This document shows, in pieces, positions 7,546 to 61,473 of a DNA stretch of 64,000 bases. Origin of the DNA: Onthophagus taurus (Eukaryota; Arthropoda; Insecta; Coleoptera; Scarabaeidae); contig NC_091968.1 in the NCBI RefSeq assembly GCF_036711975.1, positions 29,683,001 to 29,747,000 on the forward strand, in the 5' to 3' direction. The notes beneath the pieces were generated by a model. That model was not told the DNA's origin. It saw only the letters and a program-made list of their open reading frames with translations, and ran no database searches. The position numbers were made by a program, and so were the translations under genes. Numbering within the stretch: the stretch's first letter is position 1; each line of letters begins with the position of its first letter.

Positions 7546-10500
7546 ATGACGACGTTTCAAGAAGAGCCCGTCCAATTAAACGGTGACAGTAATATCGTAA
7601 GTTTTGAAATATCAGTTTGATTCGATTACCAATTGTCCTCAATTACAGAGTGAACCGGAGCCCCCCGTACCGGGAACAGAGGAGCCGCCTTTAAAACAAC
7701 TCCGGCAAGCCGGTAAGTTTAAAATGTAGCTTATAGCGATCGCAAACGTTTTTAGCTGGATTCCTGCTCACGATTTTTGAACTAATACGCGATATTTCGG
7801 TCTGCTTGAGATGTTGCAGAATGTGAATTCGACTGGGTCTAAAACGTATACCATGCCCGGAGTCGTCTGTCTGTTAAGCTGTAACCGTTTCCTGCGCGGT
7901 TACATGGTAGGATTCTTATAAATGGAACCAAAAAATTAATTTTAAATGACCTAATTAAACAAAAAGCTCTTAAACAGTTTGAGTACATGTTAAAAATTTT
8001 ATTTATTAATTATTTGATACGAAAGTGATTTATTATTTTTTTTTAGTTTATAACATGTACTCATTCGATTCATTTAACTTTATTTAGTTCAATTTATTTC
8101 AGATTTGAAGTAAAAAAAAAACTAAGAATTAAATAAAATAAAAAAAATAGGGGTTGTGTGTTTAGACATATCTATTTTCTCTTTGTGTTTCCAGATACAG
8201 AGTACAATTAGGTGACGTTGTGTCCAATGGGTGGTTCTACGTGATCAAAAATAAGAAAAAAAAAACAATCCTTCATAATTTGAACCTGTGTCCTGATTTT
8301 TTTTTGAATTAAGGCTAATTTTATCATCAATTTTTGATGTCTTATCCATGTCTTAAAAAAAAAATAAATATAAAAAATTAAAACAATAAAAAAATAAGAT
8401 GATTGATTAACTTTAATTGAACTTAATCGATTACATTTTATTGCACTTCGTTTTGTTTTAGATGAAAGTGAACGTGTTGAATACTTTTATGATCTTATTC
8501 AAACCGGGGAGGTTCTTACAGGTGAGAGTTTATTTAATTTTTATCAAATTATAAAAATCCTTGTTTATAAATAATACAATGAATTTAGTTTATTTGTGAT
8601 TACATTACATTTACATAAAGTATAGTCTTCCACATGGCGATCAGTTTTTATGACTCTGTCACTTTCCTACTGTAGTTGTAAAACTAACAAAGACGGGGTT
8701 GTAACAGGTAGTTCCCCATTGTAAAATGCTGGGATTCCTCACTCAGGGCGGCATTAAGGACCACACTTTACTGGCAAATTGTAGAAAAATAATAGGGTCA
8801 TATATAAATACTCATTATTCTCTTATTTGTTGTGTTTCTAATATTAAGTACATATTTTTTCTAAGAAATGTTTTGAGGAGGCATGCATTGTCTACTTACA
8901 AAAGAGGGCGGAGAATAATTAGATTCTTTAAAATTTTGTTATTCTATTATTTAGACATTCCTAAAAGTAATATTTTTTTCTAAGACTTTTATACTAGTTT
9001 TTATAATTAAATTTTAGTTGTTATAACTAAACTTTGGTTTTTAATTAAATTTTAGTATAAAAAAATTTAAGTTCTACCCTGTCCTTGTATGACTGTCATA
9101 AGTCTTTTCAGGTACTCGAGGGGGAAAAAATTACCAAGGCTTTTATTTATGACTGTCATAAAAACCGATCTGGATGTGGAAGAGTATACACATTGGGGGG
9201 TGGCTGGACCAATCAACATTTATACTCTTAAAGTGTCCTGTAAAGCTTTCCCTGTATCCTAGCTGCTTCAAAATCCTTATTAACTTTTTTTGCAATTTAA
9301 AAATCTCTTCAGATACCATGAAAGTATGCAAAATACACATTTCTTAGTTCTTCTGCAAGTAATATTTTTGATTCCACTCGCAGGCAATATGGCGAACTCG
9401 CTAATTTCTAATTCTATTATGTGGTGACCCCAAGAAAGGGTTTCAGATAATGTTACACTTAGAAATCTTGTTTGATTTTTTAGCTTTTGTGTTTTTCTTG
9501 TATAAAAGGTAGTATATGAGCTTTTTCCCTGTTTAAGTGTAAATAGTTAATTCAATTTGAACCAATTGTTGGCTGTATCTAATGGTTTTTGTCTTTTGAT
9601 CCAGGTCTTGAAAATCCTTTGAAGTATTTATAAAAGAGGTGTCATGTCCGCCTCTATATTTTGAGGCAAATCGCCATTTTAATCTTGCTCCAATTAGATG
9701 TTGTTTGATTCCAATAAACCTGTTGCTGTCTATCATGAAGATAAGAACTGATTACTTTTTTTCCGTTTTCTTTTATACAAAATTTTTCTATTTTCTTCAA
9801 GAGAAAATTATGGTCTACAGAATAAAAAGTCTTGCTAAGATCACAGAAGGTTACATTACATTACATTACATAGAATACATATCGGGTAGGCGGACCAACC
9901 AACCTTGCACCGCGACCCTAAGGATCTATTGTACCCCGATAGATATCATTATCAAATTTCACAGTAGGCGAAGTCTCTCTTCAGCCCACAGTCCAATCCT
10001 ATATTTGGCCATCGCAAATGATACACCAACTGCTGGTTCCGGTCCCACAAACGCTTCAGCGCTGCCATCTCGTGCTAGCTTATCTGCCGCTTCATTGCCA
10101 GCAACACCAGAGTGACCCGGGACCCAGATCAGAGAGACTCTGTTATCACAACTCAGTGTGTTTAATGTTCTCTTACAATCATTAACCAGAGCCGACACCG
10201 TTTTCACGGCTTGCAGCGCCTGGAGAGCGGCTTGACTGTCTGAGAAGATTCGTACTGTCATGTTCTTCACCCCTCTTTCAAGAAGGATTTTAGCACCCAT
10301 GTCAATAGCAAATACTTCCGCCTGGAATACAGTACAGTACGTACCCAGGCTGTAGGCTTGCTTAATTCGAGGTGTCTGGCAGTATACTCCTGCTCCTACC
10401 CCTTCAGGCGTTTTTGATCCATCTGTGTACAAGCAAATGTCTGCCCGAACCAGAGAATTTTCATTTTCGATCCAGGACTGCCGCTCAGGCAGTACAATCT

Positions 10501-13500
10501 GGTATCGAGCATTAATCACTGATAGTGATACCGCCAAATCTGACGGCATTGATAGCACAGTATCAATGCTTATAATGTCTTCCGCAGCCCATTGGTAGGA
10601 CATGTCGGAACAGTTTTGAGCATATTGCTTAAATCTGTAAATGGTTGTTCTAGCCACTTTCTCTATATGCAAATGCAGAGGAGATAGGCCAAGCAGAACC
10701 TCCATTGCTAGAGTTGGCGTTGTGCCTATCGCACCAGAGATTGCCAATCCAGCTACTCGTTGAATTCGTGAAAGTTTACTGATAGCTGAAGTCTGTCGGA
10801 CTTTCCTATACCAGGCTGCTGCTCCGTATGTGATCATAGGTCTAACCACAGTCACATAGAGCCAGTACAGTCTTTCAGGGGTAAGACCCCAACTTTTTCC
10901 ACAAAGACTGCGACAAGTCCACAAGGATATTCTAGCTTTGTGCAAAACTCCCTGCAAATGTCCATTCCATGACAGGGTTCTGTCTAGGATTACTCCTAGA
11001 TATTTGTCTTCCTTTGAGAAAGGAATTTCTTCACCTTGGATAGTTGAGCGGATTAGTCCATCCAACTTTCGCTTCCTGGTGAAGGGCGCAACAATTGTCT
11101 TTTGCGGGTTTATTGAGAGGTTCTCTCTCTTACACTAAGCGCAAATGGTATCTAGGGTCACCTGGAGGACTTTAGATATCCTCGGCAAACAGGTTCCTTT
11201 GACCATAACGACAATGTCATCAGCATAAGCTTGTATTTCCACACCAACGGCTTCGACTATCGCAATCAGATCGTCAACTAGGAGGGACCACAGCAGGGGA
11301 GATAACACCCCTCCCTGTGGGCAGCCACCTCCCGGCCTGAAGCGTATCGTATCACCGTGGAGTGAAGTAGAAACTATTCTACTATCTAGCATATTGCGGA
11401 TCCAACCCGCTATAGTTGCTTCCACTCCCCTGTCAAGAGCAGCTCTTTCAAGAGATTGTGGTATTGCGTTGTTGAACGCTCCCTCTATATCCAACGCACA
11501 AACCAAGATTTCTTTATCCTGCAGCGTCCTGGATACTCTACCAACTAAGTTGTGTAGAGCCAATTCTGCTGATTTTCCCGCTTGATAAGCATACTGGTGG
11601 CGACTCAGTGGACCAGATACCAATGGCACCGTACGGATATACCGTTCCAGAACGTTTTCAAGGGTTTTCAGCAGAAATGACGTTAGGCTGATGGGTCGAA
11701 AGGCATTAGGAGTAGGGACCGAACGGCCCGCTTTGGGTATGTAAGATACCCGTACCTTAGTCCATTCTGCCGGCACATATTTCCAGGCGACACTCGCTCT
11801 GAAAATTTTTACCAAAATTGGCAACAACAGAGACCTCCCCTGCTGTAACAAAGCAGGAAAGATATTGTCTTCTCCAGGCGATTTGAACGGCTTAAACGTT
11901 TGAATTGCCTGGTCCACGGATGTGTAAGTGACGACTTTTCTAGCCACACTCCAATCCGTATTTGAGGGGCGCTTTGCCTTGCAGGAATAGCCCGCTGTGG
12001 CATTATCGGCCCTCATCATCAGGCTTCCTGGGAAGTGAGTCTGCATGAGAAGCTCCAACGAGGCTCTGCTAGAGTCCGTAAAACTACCGTCAGGCCGCCT
12101 AAGTGAGCCCAGGGGTAGTGCCGGATCTCTAGCGAGAATCTTGTGAATTCTTGCACTGCTGGGTGTGTCTTTCACTCCCTCACAGAACCTCCTCCAAGAC
12201 TCTCTTTTTGCCTTACGTATGTTTTTGGTGTAATTCGTTAGAGCTTGTTTATATTTCTCCCAGAAGGTTACTTGCGTGTAACGCTGCATATCACAAGCAG
12301 CTATTATGTTTTGAATTACAGTAAGCTTTTATCATTTGCACTCTAACATACTTTAATTCATTTGGAAATATTCCCTCTTTTAAGCATTTGTTTAATAATA
12401 TACATAATACTTCTCTTATTGTTGGATCTATGTTCTGAATTAGTTTCGTTGTCATCCTGTAAACATTTTTGTATTTGTCTTATTCAAGTTTTTGATTATC
12501 TTTTCCACTTCTTCTTATATTGATCATCTTATATTGATTATCTTCTTCATATTGATAGTTTGAGTTTTATCACTGAGAGAATTATTTTCTTTCTTGCGCC
12601 TTGTTTCTTGTTTCACTATATTCCAGGCAGCAATTATTTTATTTTCTGAATATCATCATCATAAATAAGCTTTTTTTTGTATTATCTAACAGTTTTCGCG
12701 TTGTGCGATAAACCAGAGATTGCCAATCCAGCTACTCGTTGAATTCGTGAAAGTTTACTAATAACTGAAGTCTGTCGGGCTTTCCTATACCAGGCTTTGC
12801 CATGCAGGAATAGGCCACTGTGACATTATTAGCCCACATCATCAAGCATCCTAGGAAGTGAGTTTGCATGTGAAGCTCTAACAAGGCTCTGCTGGAGTCT
12901 GTATTTGTGATTAAGTAAATTATTTGATTCTATAAAATTCTATAAACAAGGATAAAAAAATTTGATGCTAATAAAGCTTAAAAAAATGCGTCCTAAATAG
13001 TTTATTTTAATAAAATCAATATATTTAAGTAGGACCTGGGGCTCGAAGTAATACATTGGCTGGGATTTTGGGTGGTGCTCTTCCAAAACTATCAACAGAA
13101 CAAACCGATTCAGTTAGCAAGGCGAAGAAATATGCCATGGAACAAAGTATTAAAATGGTTTTAATGAAACAAACGTTAGCTCATCAACAACAGGTAAATA
13201 AAGAGTATTTTGTTATTAAAATTTATTTTTTATAATTTAATTTTTTTGTTTTTAACTTATTTTTTTTTTAATTGGTTTTATTTTAATTGGTCAAAAAATT
13301 TAGGTTAAATTTCTCTTAAAACCCTGTTTAAATTTGCTCCGCAGAAACATAAAACGTTCCAGCGACACCAAGTATTGGTTTTAATGTGCAGGTTAGTGTC
13401 TAACGTTTGTTGCGTAGACGTTTTTACGGCGAGCCCGCCCGCGGGGCGAGAGCTCCTTGCGGACCAACAATTATAAGAAAAATAATGCTCTTATTGAGCT

Positions 13501-17290: not shown

Positions 17291-37729
<20,439 letters not shown>

Positions 37730-39364: not shown

Positions 39365-41387
39365 GGTAAGGATAATAATAATAATAATTTATTCATGTAA
39401 TATCACTAATCACATAGAAATCGTCATACAAAAAAAGAAAGATTATTTATTATAAAGATTATTTAAAAGACTAATCAAGAAGGTATTCAGACCACGAATA
39501 GTAACACTTGGCAACTAAATAGTCCTTCACCCATTTTTTAAAACTCAAAATTTTCTTACTTCTGACGTCTTCGGGTAACTTGTTGTAGAATTTGACTCCC
39601 CAATAGTCAGCATATTTTTTAGTAGTTTCAATTCTGTGTAGTGGCGGTCTCAACATTTCTTTTTCTCTGGTGTTGTGTGAGTGGATATATACATTTTCAG
39701 TAAATTTGATCTTATTTTAATGTACGTATAGTAGAGTTGCTAATATGTATGCCCCAAATAAGGTAAGTAATTTTTCTCTTTTGAACGATTCTTTGCAACT
39801 TTCGGTCGATTCCAGATCACACAGTGCACGAACTGCCTTTTTCTGCAATCCGAAGACTCTTCCAATGTTGGACGAGTGGCCCCAAACAACAATGCCATAC
39901 GTCGCAATCGTATAGAAATTCGCGTAGTAGGCAATTTTTGCAACTTCATGAGAGGCAACTTTTTTAAGACGTCGGATAACATAAACAGCCGTTGACAATT
40001 TTTTACATATGGCATCAATGTGAGGACACCACGTCAGCTTAACATCCAATATTAAACCTAGAAACTTAACAGCTTCAGAGTTGTTGGGTTTCTTAAAATC
40101 AATGACAAGTTTCTCAGTTTTGTTTTCATTCAGTTTTAGCTTATTGTTCGAGAACCATTCTTTAGCTCTTTTGGTTGCAGCCGTGGACCGCTCCCGCAAC
40201 GCCTGATGATCTCTATCTTTGATCAAGATTGAAGTATCGTCTGCATAAATACAAACATCTTCCTTGACATGCACCGGTAAGTCGTTGATGTATATCAAAA
40301 ACAGCAGAGGGCCGAGTATTGACCCTTGAGGTACTCCATATTTTATTTCCTTCATTTCAGACGATTGATTTGCCCAGAAGACATATTGTTGTCTTCCATG
40401 CAGATAGGATCTAATCAGATTTAATTGTTGACCTCTAATTCCGTAGAAACTTAGTTTACCCAACAGTACTTCATGACACACCGTGTCAAACGCTTTGCTT
40501 AGGTCCAATAGATTGATTTGCACCAGCTGCTGCTCATCCAAACCATTCAATACAAATTCCATTACCTTCATAATCCCAGAAATTGTGGATCTATTTTCAC
40601 GATAACCATGTTGGTTATTATTTAAAAAATCATTGCGGTTTAAATATCTTACTAATCTGTTTAAAATTAACTTTTCAAAGACCTTTGAGAGAACTGGCAG
40701 AATCGAAATCGGCCTATAATTTTCACAGTCGTTAACATCACCTTTCTTGTGGACTGGTAGAACCTTCGCTATTTTCATTTCTTCGGGAAAAACACCTTCA
40801 GACGCACATTGATTGAGGAGAAACGTTAGTGGTTCCACACACTGTTGAATGATTTTCTTTAGAATATTGGTGTTCAAGCCATATTTATCAGCTGTATTAT
40901 TATTCTTCATTTTGTTCACAACTTCAATTAATTCGAAGACAGTTATAGGTTCAAAGTAAAAGGATTTAAATTATCAATTTTACTATCCCTGAGGTAAACC
41001 TCATAAGAACTAGTGCTAATTACATCTCTCAAAATGTTGGTTGCGATTGTATTGAAATAATTTCCCAGGTCTGCGGCGTCAATGTTGGTGGCAGTTGTGG
41101 TTTTACGTTTAGATTGACACACATTATTGATCACATCCCACATGGCCTTGATTTTATTGTTTGTGTTCAGAATATAATTACCGGAAGCTTTTTTCTTGTT
41201 TTCAGTGATTTTGTTCATATATTCTGTCTTATATTTTTTATACAGGCGAAAGCCTTCAGCATCTTTAGTCTTTTGAGCTATAGTGAGTAAAGCATCCAAA
41301 GTATCTTTTAGGTTATTTAATTCATGTGAGTGGTTAAACCGTACTTTTTTTACTATTTTTTTTTCTTTTGTAGGAAAGGAAAGGATA
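39365..41387 (-). mobile_element. CR1/Jockey-group non-LTR retrotransposon
   Basis: The minus strand has RT with NYRPISILPVLSKVFEKLIL, LLDLSKAFDTVCHEVLLGKL, YGVPQGSILGPLLFLIYIND and the catalytic IYADDTSILI (in 40919-39717), preceded by a linker ORF (41299-40943) that a frameshift separates. A C-terminal part follows at 39656-39471. The 3' tail is (ATT)n at 39371-39390. Flanks GGTAAGGATA (39365) and GGAAAGGATA (41378) look like a target duplication with one mismatch. No RNase H. Confidence 0.88.
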
Positions 41388-41590: not shown

Positions 41591-43107
41591 GAACAATTTA
41601 ACATTACATTACATTACATAGAATACATATCGGGTAGACGGACCAACCAACCTTGCACCGTGACCCTAAGGATCTATTTTACCCCGATAGATATCGTTAT
41701 CAAATTTCACCGTGCAGTCCAATGCTCTTAACGAACATTAATACCTTGCTCGGCGAAAGGTCATTCAGATCTTTTGAGGAGATAAACTGCGACCCAAAAA
41801 TCGAGAATCTGATACGGTTAATGGCAGGGCAGTGGCATAAAACATGCTCAACCGTCTCTGCTTCCTCCGCACATAGTCGGCATTCAACATCGTCGGCTAA
41901 ACCCAACAAGTTGAGGTGTGCTTTTAATCGGCAGTGCCCATTAGAACTTTTATGCTACTACGGGCAAGTCCTAAAATATTCCCGGGTCTCATTCCAGGAG
42001 AACTGGTCCACAGTAGGCGAAGTCTCTCTTCAGCCCACAGTCCAATTCTATATTTGGCCATCGCAAATGATACACCAACACACAAACGCTTCAGCGCTGC
42101 CATCTCGTGCTAGCTTATCTGCCGCTTCATTGCCAGCAACCCCAGAGTGACCCGGGACCCAGATCAGAGAGACTCTGTTATCACAACTTAGTGTGTTTAA
42201 TGTTCTCTTACAGTCATTAACCACAGCGCCTGGAGAGCGGCTTGACTGTCTGAGAAAATTCGTACTGTCATGTTCTTCACCCCTCTTTCAAGAAGGATTT
42301 TAGTACCCATGTCAATAGCAAATACTTCCGCCTGGAATACAGTACAGTACGTACCCAGGCTGTAGGCTTGCTTAATTCGAGGTGTCTGGCAGTATACTCC
42401 TGCTCCTACCCCTTCAGGCGTTTTTGATCCATCTGTGTACAAGCAAATGTCTGCCCGAACCAGAGAATTTTCATTTTCGATCCAGGACTGCCGCTCAGGC
42501 AGTACAATCTGGTATCGAGCATTAATCACTGATAGTGATACCGCCAAATCTGACGGCATTGATAGCACAGTATCAGTGCTTATAATGTCTTCCGCAGCCC
42601 ATTGGTAGGACATGTCGGAACAGTTTTGAGCATATTGCTTAAATCTGTAAATGGTTGTTCTAGCCACTTTCTCTATATGCAAATGCAGAGGAGATAGGCC
42701 AAGCAGAACCTCCATTGCTAGAGTTGGCGTTGTGCCTATCGCACCAGAGATTGCCAATCCAGCTACTCGTTGAATTCGTGAAAGTTTACTGATAACTGAA
42801 GTCTGTCGGACTTTCCTATACCAGGCTGCTGCTCCGTATGTGATCATAGGTCTAACCACAGTCGCATAGAGCCAGTACAATTTTTCAGGGGTAAGACCCC
42901 AATTTTTTCCACAAAGACTGCGACAAGTCCACAAGGATAGTCTAGCTTTGTGCAAAACTCCCTGCAAATGTCCATTCCATGACAGGGTTTTGTCTAGGAT
43001 TACTCCTAGATATTTGACTTCCTTTGAGAAAGGAATTTCTTCACCTTGGATAGTTGGGCGGATTAGTTCATCCAACTTTCGCTTGCTGGTGAAGGGAACA
43101 ATTTAAC
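41591..43107 (-). mobile_element. RNase H non-LTR retrotransposon, copy 2, with 12-bp TSD
   Basis: Body 41603-43095 between perfect GAACAATTTAAC repeats. It is the same family as 9848-12300 and nearly identical over the shared part, but 5'-truncated inside RT. It retains the C-terminal zinc knuckle (CRLCAEEAETVEHVLCHC at 41880-41830), which copy 1 has lost. Small deletions near 42079 and 42223 break its RNase H frame. The 3' tail is (TGTAA)n. Confidence 0.92.
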
Positions 43108-52671: not shown

Positions 52672-53373
52672 CGTTTTGAGATGCGGTCAAAGAGTCAAAA
52701 CGGCAAGCTAATCGGATCGAACCGACTTAAAAAAAAATAAATAATTAACTAAATAAAAATAAGTATAAAATGGCTGTTGCGCTTTTAAACTATTTAATAA
52801 GTTTCTACTTTTTTCTTTTTTATAATAATTCGATATAAATGAACGAAAAAAAATTCGGTTTGCTTGCTGCAATTTGTGTTCGATATAAAAAAGAAGAAAA
52901 AAAGAGATCGGTTCGTCAAAAACTACCCTAACTAGTCCTTGTTTCCGTCGAAACTTTTTTTTTTTGTTTTTTAATTATTTTTATGGTTTATAAATATTTT
53001 TTTAATTAAAAAGTGAGTACGTAAAACTTATTTTCTATTTTTAACAGTTTTAAAAAGCACAATTAAATTTATTGGGAAATTAATTAAAACTATTAGAATT
53101 TTTTTTAATAGAATCAAAGACAATGCCATACTCTTGTAATTTAAATGAATTAATTTAAATTAATTTGATTAATTAAGCGAAACCGTCGTAAAAAAATTTA
53201 TTATTGTATAGCGCCGTTTGTATTTAAGCCCGATTGTAAATATACCCGAAAATTGAAAAATAAATTCTATCAAAAACTCGAAAAAGCAGAGGAACAATAC
53301 ACACAAAAACAACTTTTCTTTATTTTATTGGTTTTTTTTATTCATTTAACTTGATTGTAAATCTTAAAATTAA
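52672..53373. other. Convergent 3' untranslated regions of hep and the hexapeptide gene
   Basis: AT-rich. AATAAA for hep on the plus strand at 53259-53264 and AATAAA for the next gene on the minus strand at 53324-53329 lie about 60 bp apart, so the transcripts may overlap. Confidence 0.6.
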
Positions 53374-56300
53374 TTAATACGCAGCAACCATGTTATTGTT
53401 GATGGTGAATTTATTTTTAACAACGAATGGAGTGCAGAATTTCGATCGTTGGATCGCATCAAACATGGATTCGTTGTTGGCGATGTGTTGGGATTTTTCT
53501 TCGTTTCCAGAAAAGGAGTAATTGATGTAATCGTTAATTTCAATGCGTTTTCCTTGGTTGACATATTTCTCGTAGTTGTCTTCAAACACTTTACCTTGGC
53601 AGATGTCAAGAGTTTTTCCTTGTTCGACGTATTTGGCTTGCCAAATTGATTTTGCTTGCGAAATGGTTTTGGCTTGTTCGATGTATTTAGCCTGTGACAC
53701 GTATTTTGCTTGGGAAATAGTCTTCGCTTGTTCGATGTATTTAGCCTGGGCAATGGTCTTGGCTTGATTAATGGTTGTAGCTTGCTCAATGTATTTGGCT
53801 TGAGCGATTGTTTTGGCCTGGTCGATGGTCTTGGCTTGTTCGATATATTTGGCCTGGGAAATGGTCTTGGCTTGCTCAATGTATTTTGCTTGAGCAATGG
53901 TCTTTGCTTGTTCGATGTATTTGGCCTGGGCGATGGTTTTAGCTTGATCAATGGTTTTAGCTTGTTCAATATATTTAGCTTGAGCAATGGTCTTTGCTTG
54001 TTCGATATATTTAGCTTGAGCAATGGTCTTGGCTTGATCAATAGTTTTAGCTTGAGCAATGGTCTTGGCTTGATCAATAATTTTAGCTTGCTCAATGTAT
54101 TTCGCTTGGGCAATGGTTTTAGCTTGATCTATGGTCTTAGCTTGTTCGATGTATTTGGCCTGGGCAATGGTTTTAGCTTGATCAATGGTTTTGGCTTGTT
54201 CGATATATTTAGCTTGAGCAATGGTCTTGGCTTGGTCTACGGTCTTCGCTTGCTCAATGTATTTAGCTTGAGCAATGGTCTTTGCTTGATCTATGGTTTT
54301 AGCTTGCTCGATATATTTAGCTTGAGCAATGGTCTTTGCTTGATCAATAGTTTTGGCTTGCTCAATGTATTTAGCTTGAGCAATGGTCTTAGCTTGTTCG
54401 ATATATTTAGCTTGAGCAATGGTCTTGGCTTGATCTACGGTCTTCGCTTGTTCAATGTATTTAGCTTGGGCAATGGTCTTGGCTTGATCAATAGTTTTGG
54501 CTTGTTCGATGTATTTGGCCTGGGCAATGGTTTTAGCTTGATTAATGGTCTTAGCTTGTTCGATATATTTAGCTTGAGCAATGGTCTTGGCTTGGTCTAC
54601 GGTCTTCGCTTGCTCAATGTATTTAGCTTGAGCAATGGTCTTTGCTTGATCTATGGTCTTAGCTTGCTCGATATATTTAGCTTGAGCAATGGTCTTGGCT
54701 TGATCAATAGTTTTGGCTTGCTCAATGTATTTAGCTTGAGCAATGGTCTTAGCTTGTTCGATATATTTAGCTTGAGCAATGGTCTTGGCTTGATCTACGG
54801 TCTTCGCTTGTTCAATGTATTTTGCTTGAGCAATGGTTTTGGCTTGATCAATAGTTTTGGCTTGCTCAATGTATTTCGCTTGGGCAATGGTTTTAGCTTG
54901 ATCTATGGTCTTAGCTTGTTCTATGTATTTGGCCTGGGCAATGGTCTTTGCTTGATCAATGGTTTTGGCTTGTTCAATGTATTTAGCTTGAGCAATAGTC
55001 TTAGCTTGTTCGATATATTTAGCTTGAGCAATGGTCTTGGCTTGATCAATAGTTTTGGCTTGCTCGATGTATTTGGCTTGGGCAATGGTCTTGGCTTGTT
55101 CAATAGTCTTAGCTTGTTCGATGTATTTAGCTTGGGCAATGGTTTTAGCTTGATCAATGGTCTTAGCTTGTTCGATATATTTAGCTTGAGCAATGGTCTT
55201 GGCTTGGTCTACGGTCTTAGCTTGCTCAATGTATTTTGCTTGAGCAATGGTCTTGGCTTGATCAATGGTTTTGGCTTGCTCAATGTATTTCGCTTGGGCA
55301 ATGGTTTTGGCTTGCTCAATGTATTTCGCTTGGGCAATAGTTTTAGCTTGATCTATGGTCTTAGCTTGTTCGATGTATTTGGCCTGGGCAATGGTTTTAG
55401 CTTGTTCAATGGTTTTGGCTTGTTCAATGGTTTTGGCTTGTTCAATGTATTTAGCTTGAGCAATAGTCTTAGCTTGTTCGATATATTTAGCTTGAGCAAT
55501 GGTCTTTGCTTGGTCTACGGTCTTTGCTTGTTCAATGTACTTGGCTTGAGCGATGGTCTTGGCTTGATCAATGGTCTTAGCTTGTTCGATGTATTTGGCC
55601 TGGGCAATGGTCTTAGCTTGATCAATGGTTTTGGCTTGTTCAACGTATTTAGCTTGGGCAACGGTCTTGGCTTGCTCAATGTATTTGGCTTGGGCAATGG
55701 TCTTGGCTTGGTCTATGGTCTTGGCTTGTTCAATGTATTTGGCTTGGGCAATGGTCTTGGCTTGCTCTACGGTTTTGGCTTGCTCGATGTATTTAGCTTG
55801 GGCAATGGTCTTGGCTTGCTCTACGGTTTTGGCTTGCTCGATGTATTTAGCTTGGGCAATGGTCTTGGCTTGCTCGATGTATTTGGCTTGGGCAATGGTT
55901 TTCGCTTGGTCTATGGTCTTCGCTTGCTCAATATATTTGGCTTGGGCAATAGTCTTGGCTTGATTAATGGTTTTGGCTTGCTCAATGTATTTGGCTTGCG
56001 AAACAGTCTTGGCTTGGTCTACAGTCTTCGCTTGCTCAATGTATTTAGCTTGGGCAATGGTCTTGGCTTGATCAATGGTTTTGGCTTGCTCGATATATTT
56101 AGCTTGGGCAATGGTCTTGGCTTGGTCTACGGTCTTGGCTTGCTCAACGTATTTGGCTTGGGCAATGGTTTTCGCTTGGTCTACGGTCTTTGCTTGCTCA
56201 ATGTATTTAGCTTGGGCAATGGTCTTGGCTTGATCAATGGTTTTGGCTTGCTCGATATATTTAGCTTGGGCAATGGTCTTGGCTTGGTCTACGGTTTTGG

Positions 56301-58827
56301 CTTGCTCAACGTATTTGGCTTGGGCAATGGTTTTCGCTTGGTCTACGGTCTTTGCTTGCTCAATGTATTTAGCTTGGGCAATGGTCTTGGCTTGATCAAT
56401 GGTTTTGGCTTGCTCGATATATTTAGCTTGGGCAATGGTCTTGGCTTGCTCTACCGTCTTGGCTTGCTCGACGTATTTGGCCTGGGCAATGGTTTTCGCT
56501 TGGTCTACGGTCTTTGCTTGCTCAATGTATTTAGCTTGGGCAATGGTCTTGGCTTGATCAATGGTTTTGGCTTGCTCGATATATTTAGCTTGGGCAATGG
56601 TCTTGGCTTGGTCTACGGTCTTGGCTTGCTCAACGTATTTGGCTTGGGCAATGGTTTTCGCTTGGTCTACGGTCTTTGCTTGCTCAATGTATTTAGCTTG
56701 GGCAATGGTCTTGGCTTGATCAATGGTTTTGGCTTGCTTGATATATTTAGCTTGGGCAATGGTCTTGGCTTGGTCTACGGTTTTGGCTTGCTCAACGTAT
56801 TTGGCTTGGGCAATGGTTTTCGCTTGGTCTACGGTCTTTGCTTGCTCAATGTATTTAGCTTGGGCAATGGTCTTGGCTTGATCAATGGTTTTGGCTTGAT
56901 CGATATATTTAGCTTGGGCAATGGTCTTGGCTTGCTCTACCGTTTTGGCTTGCTCGACGTATTTGGCCTGGGCAATGGTTTTCGCTTGGTCTACGGTCTT
57001 TGCTTGCTCAATGTATTTAGCTTGGGCAATGGTCTTGGCTTGATCAATGGTTTTGGCTTGCTCGATATATTTAGCTTGGGCAATGGTCTTGGCTTGGTCT
57101 ACGGTCTTGGCTTGCTCAACGTATTTGGCTTGGGCAATGGTTTTCGCTTGGTCTACGGTCTTTGCTTGCTCAATGTATTTAGCTTGGGCAATGGTCTTGG
57201 CTTGATCAATGGTTTTGGCTTGCTCGATATATTTAGCTTGGGCAATGGTCTTGGCTTGCTCTACGGTCTTGGCTTGCTCAACGTATTTGGCTTGGGCAAT
57301 GGTTTTCGCTTGGTCTACGGTCTTTGCTTGCTCAATGTATTTAGCTTGGGCAATGGTCTTGGCTTGATCAATGGTTTTGGCTTGCTCGATATATTTAGCT
57401 TGGGCAATGGTCTTGGCTTGCTCTACGGTCTTGGCTTGCTCAACGTATTTGGCTTGGGCAATGGTTTTCGCTTGGTCTACGGTCTTTGCTTGCTCAATGT
57501 ATTTAGCTTGGGCAATGGTCTTGGCTTGATCAATGGTTTTGGCTTGCTCGACGTATTTAGCTTGGGCAATGGTCTTGGCTTGGTCTACCGTCTTGGCTTG
57601 CTCGACGTATTTGGCTTGGGCAATGGTTTTCGCTTGGTCTACGGTCTTTGCTTGCTCAATGTATTTAGCTTGGGCAATGGTCTTGGCTTGATCAATGGTT
57701 TTGGCTTGCTCGATATATTTAGCTTGGGCAATGGTCTTGGCTTGCTCTACGGTCTTGGCTTGCTCAACGTATTTGGCTTGGGCAATGGTTTTCGCTTGGT
57801 CTACGGTCTTTGCTTGCTCAATGTATTTAGCTTGGGCAATGGTCTTGGCTTGATCAATGGTTTTGGCTTGCTCGACGTATTTAGCTTGGGCAATGGTCTT
57901 GGCTTGGTCTACCGTCTTGGCTTGCTCGACGTATTTGGCTTGGGCAATGGTTTTCGCTTGGTCTACGGTCTTTGCTTGCTCAATGTATTTAGCTTGGGCA
58001 ATGGTCTTGGCTTGATCAATGGTTTTGGCTTGCTCGATATATTTAGCTTGGACAATGGTCTTGGCTTGCTCTACCGTCTTGGCTTGCTCAATGTATTTAG
58101 CTTGGGCAATGGTCTTGGCTTGCTCGACGTATTTAGCTTGGGCAATGGTCTTGGCTTGATCTATGGTTTTCGCTTGGTCTACGGTCTTCGCTTGCTCAAT
58201 GTATTTGGCTTGGGCAATGGTTTTCGCTTGGTCTACGGTTTTGGCTTGTTCGACATATTTAGCTTGAGCAATTGTCTTGGCTTGGTCAATGGTCTTAGCT
58301 TGAACAATGCATTTAGCTTGAGTAACAGTTTTAGCTTGGTCAACAGTCTTAGCTTGTTCTACATATTTAGCTTGGCAAACAGTCTTTCCTTGATCAACGG
58401 TTTTAGCTTGCTCAATATATTTGGCTTGTTCAATAGTCTTAGCTTGATCAATAGTTTTAGTTTGGTCTACATATTTAGCTTGTTCAACAGTTTTGCCTTG
58501 CTCAATAGATTTTCCTTGTTCAATAAATTTGGCTTGTTCAATACTTTTTCCTTGATCAATACTCTTACCTTGTTCAACATCTTCATCATTTTTCTCCTAA
58601 AGCATTAAAACAAAGACTTATTTGAAATCAAGAATTAAAGTCTCTTAAACTTACTTCTTGTGCTTTCAAGTCCATGATCCATGCAGCGAATTTGAAGACA
58701 TTTTCCTTTTCGTTTTCGGAAAAATCCAAAAAGTCGTAATCTTGCTATAAAATTAATTCAAGTAGTGATAAAATAATCTTAGATCAGGCGTAATTCGAAT
58801 ACATACATGGAACAAAGTAATCTGCAT
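53374..58827 (-). CDS. Giant hexapeptide-repeat protein, AK[T/Y][I/V][A/D/E]Q, family unknown
   Basis: Exons 58807-58827 (MQITLFH), 58655-58744 (QDYDFLDFSENEKENVFKFA and on) and 53374-58596; predicted 1,777 residues. All three junctions have good splice signals and phase 0. After an acidic leader (EEKNDEDVEQGKSIDQGKSI) the protein is roughly 270 tandem hexapeptides such as AKTIAQ, AKYVEQ, AKTVDQ, usually in triplets of 18 residues. A unique C-terminus follows (CQGKVFEDNYEKYVNQGK to NNNMVAAY). There is no signal peptide or membrane segment, and Met and Cys are rare. Every hexamer has a Lys and a Gln. A TATA box lies upstream. The opposite strand is also open over 1,632 codons, but it lacks splice context and unique ends, so I take the minus strand as coding. 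Function unknown. Confidence 0.82.
53640..58560. repeat. 18-bp in-frame minisatellite with 162-bp and 360-bp higher-order units
   Basis: The basic unit is 18 bp. Between 56035 and 57979 the word CTCAATGTATTTAGC, or its one-base variant at the first site, recurs at exactly 162-bp steps (56035, 56197, 56359, 56521, 56683, 56845, 57007, 57169, 57331, 57493, 57655, 57817, 57979), giving twelve nearly identical 54-residue units. At 54241-54960 a 360-bp block is duplicated in tandem. Toward both ends units are more diverged. Confidence 0.92.
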
Positions 58828-58903: not shown

Positions 58904-58912
58904 ATATTTATA
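58904..58912 (-). promoter_or_regulatory. TATA box of the hexapeptide-repeat gene
   Basis: The minus strand reads CATATAAATATCG about 80 bp upstream of the start codon, with no earlier ATG in the implied leader. A strong TATA box suggests tissue- or stage-specific high expression. Confidence 0.6.
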
Positions 58913-61349: not shown

Positions 61350-61473
61350 CATAAAAAACACGTTTCATAAGACTTAAAGCACTCATTCATTAAAAAACTC
61401 GTGGCTTCGCCACTCGTTTTTCAACTTGAATTCGTGCATTTCAAGCGTGTCTTACGAAACTTGTTTTTTAATA
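61350..61473. repeat. Short hairpin element with GTGGCTTCGCCAC core
   Basis: AAACACGTTTCATAAGACTT and the complement of TGTCTTACGAAACTTGTTT flank the core CTCGTGGCTTCGCCACTCG. Between 60906 and 61349 no gene is supported; the 103-codon ORF at 61004 has no recognisable domain. Confidence 0.5.

Follow-up and report, generated by a model that had tools for sequence, protein, structure and literature searches.

A putative, uncatalogued gene for a giant hexapeptide-repeat protein in the beetle Onthophagus taurus

We identified what looks like a real, single-copy and uncatalogued gene for a giant repeat protein in a 64,000-nucleotide stretch of the Onthophagus taurus genome (NC_091968.1, positions 29,683,001 to 29,747,000; hereafter the window, to which all unlabelled coordinates refer). 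The gene lies on the minus strand at 58827-53374 and, as read from the sequence, has three exons specifying a predicted product of 1,777 residues; 1,650 of these (93% of the protein) belong to an array of the hexamer AK[T/Y][I/V][D/E/A]Q. The locus very probably codes for protein, judging from the way its repeats vary. The product may be an orphan intracellular structural scaffold or fibre, a reading to which we assign a probability of roughly 40%.

The array occupies 53620-58569 on the minus strand, corresponding to residues 10 to 1,659 of exon 3. The initial annotation of this DNA had described an unrecognised giant protein built from about 270 hexamers; the array proved to be real, the exact count was 275 with an unbroken register throughout, and the rest of the description agrees with the codon-position evidence for coding, the single genomic copy and the lack of a relative within the limits of our protein searches. 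Four positions were strict: Gln and Ile/Val were each present in 275/275 hexamers, Lys in 274/275 and Ala in 269/275. The most common hexamers were AKTIAQ (84 copies), AKYIEQ (70), AKTIDQ (36), AKTVDQ (30) and AKYVEQ (19), and they usually followed the triplet order AKT[I/V]DQ-AKTIAQ-AKY[I/V]EQ, interrupted by gained or lost whole hexamers. Tyr-containing hexamers were three hexads apart in 76 of 93 intervals and two hexads apart in 12; because this spacing varies, it is the hexad that stays intact throughout, whereas the 18-residue triplet does not. Counted per copy and not per event, exceptions to the common residues numbered 6, 1, 7, 0, 14 and 0 at positions 1-6 over all 275 hexamers, and 2, 1, 2, 0, 12 and 0 without the first six and last four hexamers. 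Position 5 is tolerant and the other positions are strict. The array contained no Arg, although this residue is one step from Lys, and no His. Higher-order periods of 54 and 162 nucleotides were also present. The best internal identity was 0.975-0.997 for blocks starting at 57921 to 56625 and fell to 0.76 and 0.70 at the array ends; a homogeneous inner stretch with diverged ends fits growth by unequal crossing-over, in which the ends are old and decayed.

Codon usage within the array was uneven. Gln was encoded by CAA 263 times and by CAG 12 times, while nine other stretches of the window that probably code for protein gave 132:16 (Fisher p 0.014, with array copies that are not independent). 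Over the whole array, the AAA:AAG ratio for Lys was 163:112 and the GAA:GAG ratio for Glu was 36:69. The scarcity of CAG may serve to keep cryptic splice acceptors of the form CAG|G out of the array.

Several lines of evidence supported a protein-coding role for the repeats. Third codon positions varied freely in the array (Ala codons GCC/GCT/GCG/GCA, 129/88/27/25; Lys codons AAA/AAG, 163/111). The ratio of nonsynonymous to synonymous differences (pN/pS), to which no significance is attached since it compares copies that are not independent, was 0.24 over all hexamers; within the D, Y and A hexamer classes it was 0.141, 0.050 and 0.022, figures lowered by the definition of these classes by their residues. 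The summed amino acid entropy was 4.0 bits in the minus-strand frame and 6.2-9.8 in the other five frames. The plus strand was also open, with a 1,632-residue frame opposite the array, but the pattern of variation did not respect that frame. Given the third-position-biased variation and the lowest entropy in this frame, purifying selection seems to act on the protein of the minus strand. RNA folding of 648 nucleotides of the array was no better than that of 20 shuffled sequences (z -0.29), which counts against a role at the RNA level.

Searches of the beetle's own genome covered 290.8 Mb in 33 contigs and indicated a single copy. The possibility, raised in the initial annotation, that the repeat belongs to a satellite spread across the genome was not borne out, as every place in the genome that exactly matched a degenerate 29-base pattern of the repeat (44/44) was inside the gene. 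No satellite-type copies at many loci were found, and the hexad was absent from the six frames of six stretches fetched around weak matches. Exon 2 and the 5' region matched only themselves in the genome, and the C-terminal end had one true match; of its two other matches, one lay inside the gene (E 8.8) and one outside it (E 0.136). These searches revealed no credible second copy of exon 2, the 5' region or the C-terminal end in the genome. The match at E 0.136 (contig C7:12132299) contained two stops, and no related protein was present among the open reading frames (ORFs) read there. The N-terminus of the array gave 34 matches at E <= 10, 20 of them inside the gene and 14 outside. Eight of the latter (E 7.9e-11 to 0.28; two at C6:10310399-10313069, one at C7:35595052 and five at C5:11088094-11092116) were read as possible paralogues and did not contain the hexad in any frame; the remaining six had E values from 0.36 to 9.4. 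The best outside match (E 7.9e-11) corresponded to a frame with seven stops, consisting of KMLEQQ-like repeats out of the frame of another repetitive protein. Other repeats were noted at these loci. An open frame of 3,710 residues at C6:10303581-10314710, in the part of its sequence seen, had several unrelated repeat arrays and a start that by eye resembled a signal peptide; an open frame of 1,115 residues at C7:35594228-35597572 contained KGDHS-type repeats; and C5:11087986-11092163 contained a short satellite in several blocks that was open in many frames (KYI/KIY, LYI, FYI).

Relatives in other organisms were searched for in a collection of 5.8 billion proteins. With exon 3, 7,999 candidates of about 957-3,045 residues were scored and none reached E <= 0.001; with the C-terminal 88 residues, none of 8 candidates of 769-2,448 residues reached E <= 10. 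Short transcript fragments and proteins of very different length fall outside these limits, and a diverged tail would be enough for an ortholog to escape. A control search with the neighbouring DDRGK1, an exon of which is identical to an O. taurus protein at 229/231 residues, detected 1,843 relatives, and the 120 listed included many beetles, among them the scarabs Popillia and Holotrichia. No match to 216 residues of the array was found in PDB. Pfam families PF05403 and PF19002 (with exon 3) and PF13881 and PF12651 (with the 5' part of exon 3) scored above their curated cut-offs but were judged compositional, because several unrelated families matched the same Ala/Lys/Gln periodicity. For example, PF05403 (Plasmodium_HRP) scored 165.9 against a cut-off of 45.8, yet this is a family of His-rich repeats and the array is devoid of His. 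A prokaryotic or viral origin was also considered; 9 and 6 stretches matching the pattern were present in genome_contigs and viral_contigs, respectively, and none was related by tblastn. Literature searches with the letters of five of the hexamers, and with the terms hexapeptide repeat, beetle, lysine and glutamine, found nothing, and the available portion of a study of dung-beetle male reproductive genes (PMC8382682) does not mention the repeat.

In sequence, the gene model has the layout of a compact insect gene. All signals reported in the initial annotation, i.e., three exons with phase-0 splices, a TATA box, a poly(A) signal and a last exon of 1,741 codons, were found again. A TATA-box-like element (TATAAATA, 58905..58912, minus strand, as are all features of the gene) lies about 78 bases upstream of the first ATG of the model, which is preceded by TCAAA. 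The coding part of exon 1 (58807..58827) specifies MQITLFH. It is followed by intron 1 (58745..58806; 62 nucleotides, GTATGT...TTTTATAG), exon 2 (58655..58744; 30 codons, with a single genome match), intron 2 (58597..58654; 58 nucleotides, GTAAGT...GCTTTAG) and exon 3 (53374..58596; 1,740 sense codons and the stop); both introns are predicted GT..AG introns in phase 0. The reading frame joins across all three exons and ends at a single stop (53376-53374). Downstream of the array, the C-terminal segment of 81 residues (53377..53619), with one credible genome match, comprises a few decayed repeats and then unique sequence, and overlapping AATAAA poly(A) signals are located at 53319..53342. The predicted product has a mass of 198 kDa, an isoelectric point of 9.5 and a grand average of hydropathy (GRAVY) of -0.64, with one Pro and 20% Ala among its 1,777 residues. 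Elsewhere in the window, the ORFs at 9959-12289, 19939-22681, 39717-41299, 42197-43075 and 30775-32038 resemble what we take to be non-long-terminal-repeat retrotransposons and a transposase.

If the protein is an intracellular scaffold or fibre, Ala and Ile/Val at every third residue would provide surfaces for self-association, the near-invariant Lys and Gln would line up regularly as polar contacts or as sites of isopeptide cross-links, and the tolerant position 5 would probably face outward. The reach of the filament or gel would be set by the length of the array, which unequal crossing-over could alter. No signal peptide was evident in the model (the best 9-residue hydropathy within the first 30 residues was 1.07), which makes an intracellular role likelier than the role in clotting that had been suggested earlier and argues against the latter. 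With regard to fold, the hydrophobic Fourier power of the array was 515 at 3.0 residues, 140 at 6.0 and 3.4 at 3.6, and the 3.0-residue periodicity speaks against an amphipathic helix or a heptad coiled coil of the ordinary kind. A canonical alpha-helical coiled coil was looked for as periodicity near 3.5-3.67 residues, and the almost complete lack of power at 3.6 supported the earlier doubt about a simple coiled coil. On an ideal alpha helix, position-1 Ala and Ile/Val would point in six evenly spaced directions. Structure prediction, also proposed in the initial annotation, yielded AlphaFold2 models that differ between helix and strands. Run on the single sequence of the C-terminal 210 residues, the program modelled the repeats as one long helix, with a predicted local distance difference test score (pLDDT) that was 60-72 for the first 90 residues, fell to 30-48 in the last repeats and was below 50 in the unique tail; given eight array segments, it produced bridge-like strands with pLDDT of about 45, with values between 45 and 21 across its five models.

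Several observations weigh against a scaffold or fibre. The two AlphaFold2 runs disagree, both at low confidence, and offer no reliable fold. The 3.0-residue peak is unexceptional and partly inherent in any six-residue repeat, since 96 of the 720 permutations of its six positions reach it. The strictness of the hexamer is a count of copies and not of events, the pN/pS ratios likewise rest on copies that are not independent, and no ortholog was found within the length limits of the protein searches. Among the ten best upstream alternatives to the first exon, up to 62500, one start was hydrophobic; it lies at 61352, a long way upstream of the TATA box, has a GTAAAT donor and may give rise to a secreted form. 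Finally, the data fit a long disordered spacer equally well.

In this alternative, the protein would be a long hydrophilic spacer or a stress-type protein, mostly disordered or transiently helical and without a defined assembly, resembling late embryogenesis abundant proteins in action but not in family. Its hydrophilic and basic character, its high Ala content with a single Pro and the low confidence of both structure predictions are in line with such a role. However, four of six positions are strict and Ile/Val is present in every hexamer, which is more than a spacer should need, and we consider this explanation somewhat unlikely.

Another alternative is a protein in which Lys and Gln are kept narrowly for isopeptide joining by transglutaminase (TG). 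Involucrin-type proteins are TG substrates with short Lys/Gln-rich repeats; they share with the array protein such repeats and the lack of an evident signal peptide, and differ from the array in repeat length and in the context of Gln. Each hexamer has one Lys and one Gln (274 and 275 of 275, respectively), and the TG N-domain had 5 matches, each above the cut-off, which fall in two regions of the genome. These findings are compatible with the earlier suggestion of TG cross-linking, and the regular Lys and Gln of the array may be cross-linked. Less favourable is the residue directly preceding Gln, which is Asp or Glu in 176/275 hexamers. In the available part of a study of TG preferences (PMC9363462), Asp/Glu at -1 of Gln is least preferred by human TG2, a preference that may not be that of the insect enzyme. 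According to the same source, Lys at +2 of Gln, as found in the array, is preferred by TG1 and TG3, whereas Ile/Val is preferred by TG2 at +3 and occurs in the array at +4 (PMC9363462). In addition, Ile/Val and Ala are about as strict as Lys and Gln. A dedicated TG substrate seems doubtful.

We also considered a structural protein of the testis or sperm tail, functionally similar to Drosophila don juan and Mst101. Genes for sperm-tail repeat proteins are often male-germline-specific. The predicted product is basic, Lys-rich and repetitive, has no evident signal peptide and lacks relatives in the length-limited protein searches, all of which suit such a role; however, none of the papers listed in a literature search names a sperm-tail protein with the array repeat, and this assignment appears improbable. 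A 54-residue alpha helix would measure 81 A, compared with the 8-nm tubulin-dimer repeat, a numerical coincidence to which we gave no weight.

Two defined folds are very unlikely. The first is a natural hexad alpha/beta coiled-coil fibre of parallel chains, probably trimers, with Ala and Ile/Val at every third residue in the core and chains that switch between alpha and beta every three residues. In the portion available, Hartmann et al. (2016, PMC4786415) give the beta-layer consensus [aliphatic]-A-T-K-[polar]-[DE] and propose a minimal all-hexad alpha/beta coiled coil, which they had not detected. Their fibre and the array are similar in having consecutive short repeats with small or aliphatic residues three apart, but the former consists of nonads in trimers and the latter of hexads. 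The consensus did not occur in the array (0 occurrences), in which an aliphatic residue followed by Ala was found 85 times in 275 hexads, and a search of the literature from 2016 on for alpha/beta hexad coiled coils found nothing beyond PMC4786415. If this fold were real, the array would represent the minimal all-hexad coiled coil of Hartmann et al. over 1,650 residues, and its mismatch with the consensus would imply broader sequence rules for alpha/beta fibres than those now known.

The second fold, a parallel beta-solenoid with 18 residues per coil, is similarly remote. The 18-residue triplet of the array matches such a coil. The signature of hexapeptide beta-helices is [LIV]-[GAED]-X2-[STAV]-X in consecutive hexads, and the array resembles left-handed beta-helix repeats in its six-residue unit and in having an aliphatic residue followed by G/A/E/D at 260/274 places. 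However, the whole signature was present at only 1/274 places in register (and 1 in any register), because Lys occupies the [STAV] position, in agreement with the earlier doubt about this fold. The triplet order is interrupted, as seen in the spacing of Tyr hexamers, and the strand-like AlphaFold2 model had a pLDDT of 45. The single-sequence run produced a helix even though the program is reported, in the available part of the source, to over-predict solenoids from repeats (PMC11795689). Least probable of all is a chance open frame in a tandem repeat that is not a gene: the opposite strand is open over 1,632 codons, but third-position-biased variation and the lowest entropy in the minus-strand frame, the splice, TATA and poly(A) signals and the restriction of the repeat to one locus all stand against it.

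Giant tandem-repeat orphan genes easily escape annotation, and the array gene, from a beetle that serves as a developmental model, was absent from the protein collection within the length limits of the searches. With 275 hexads and four strict positions, the array offers a clean natural test of how six-residue repeats fold, and a single expressed peptide, e.g., (AKTVDQAKTIAQAKYIEQ)n, would separate disorder, helix, solenoid and alpha/beta fibre. If the protein forms a cross-linkable filament, it would represent a new biomaterial sequence.

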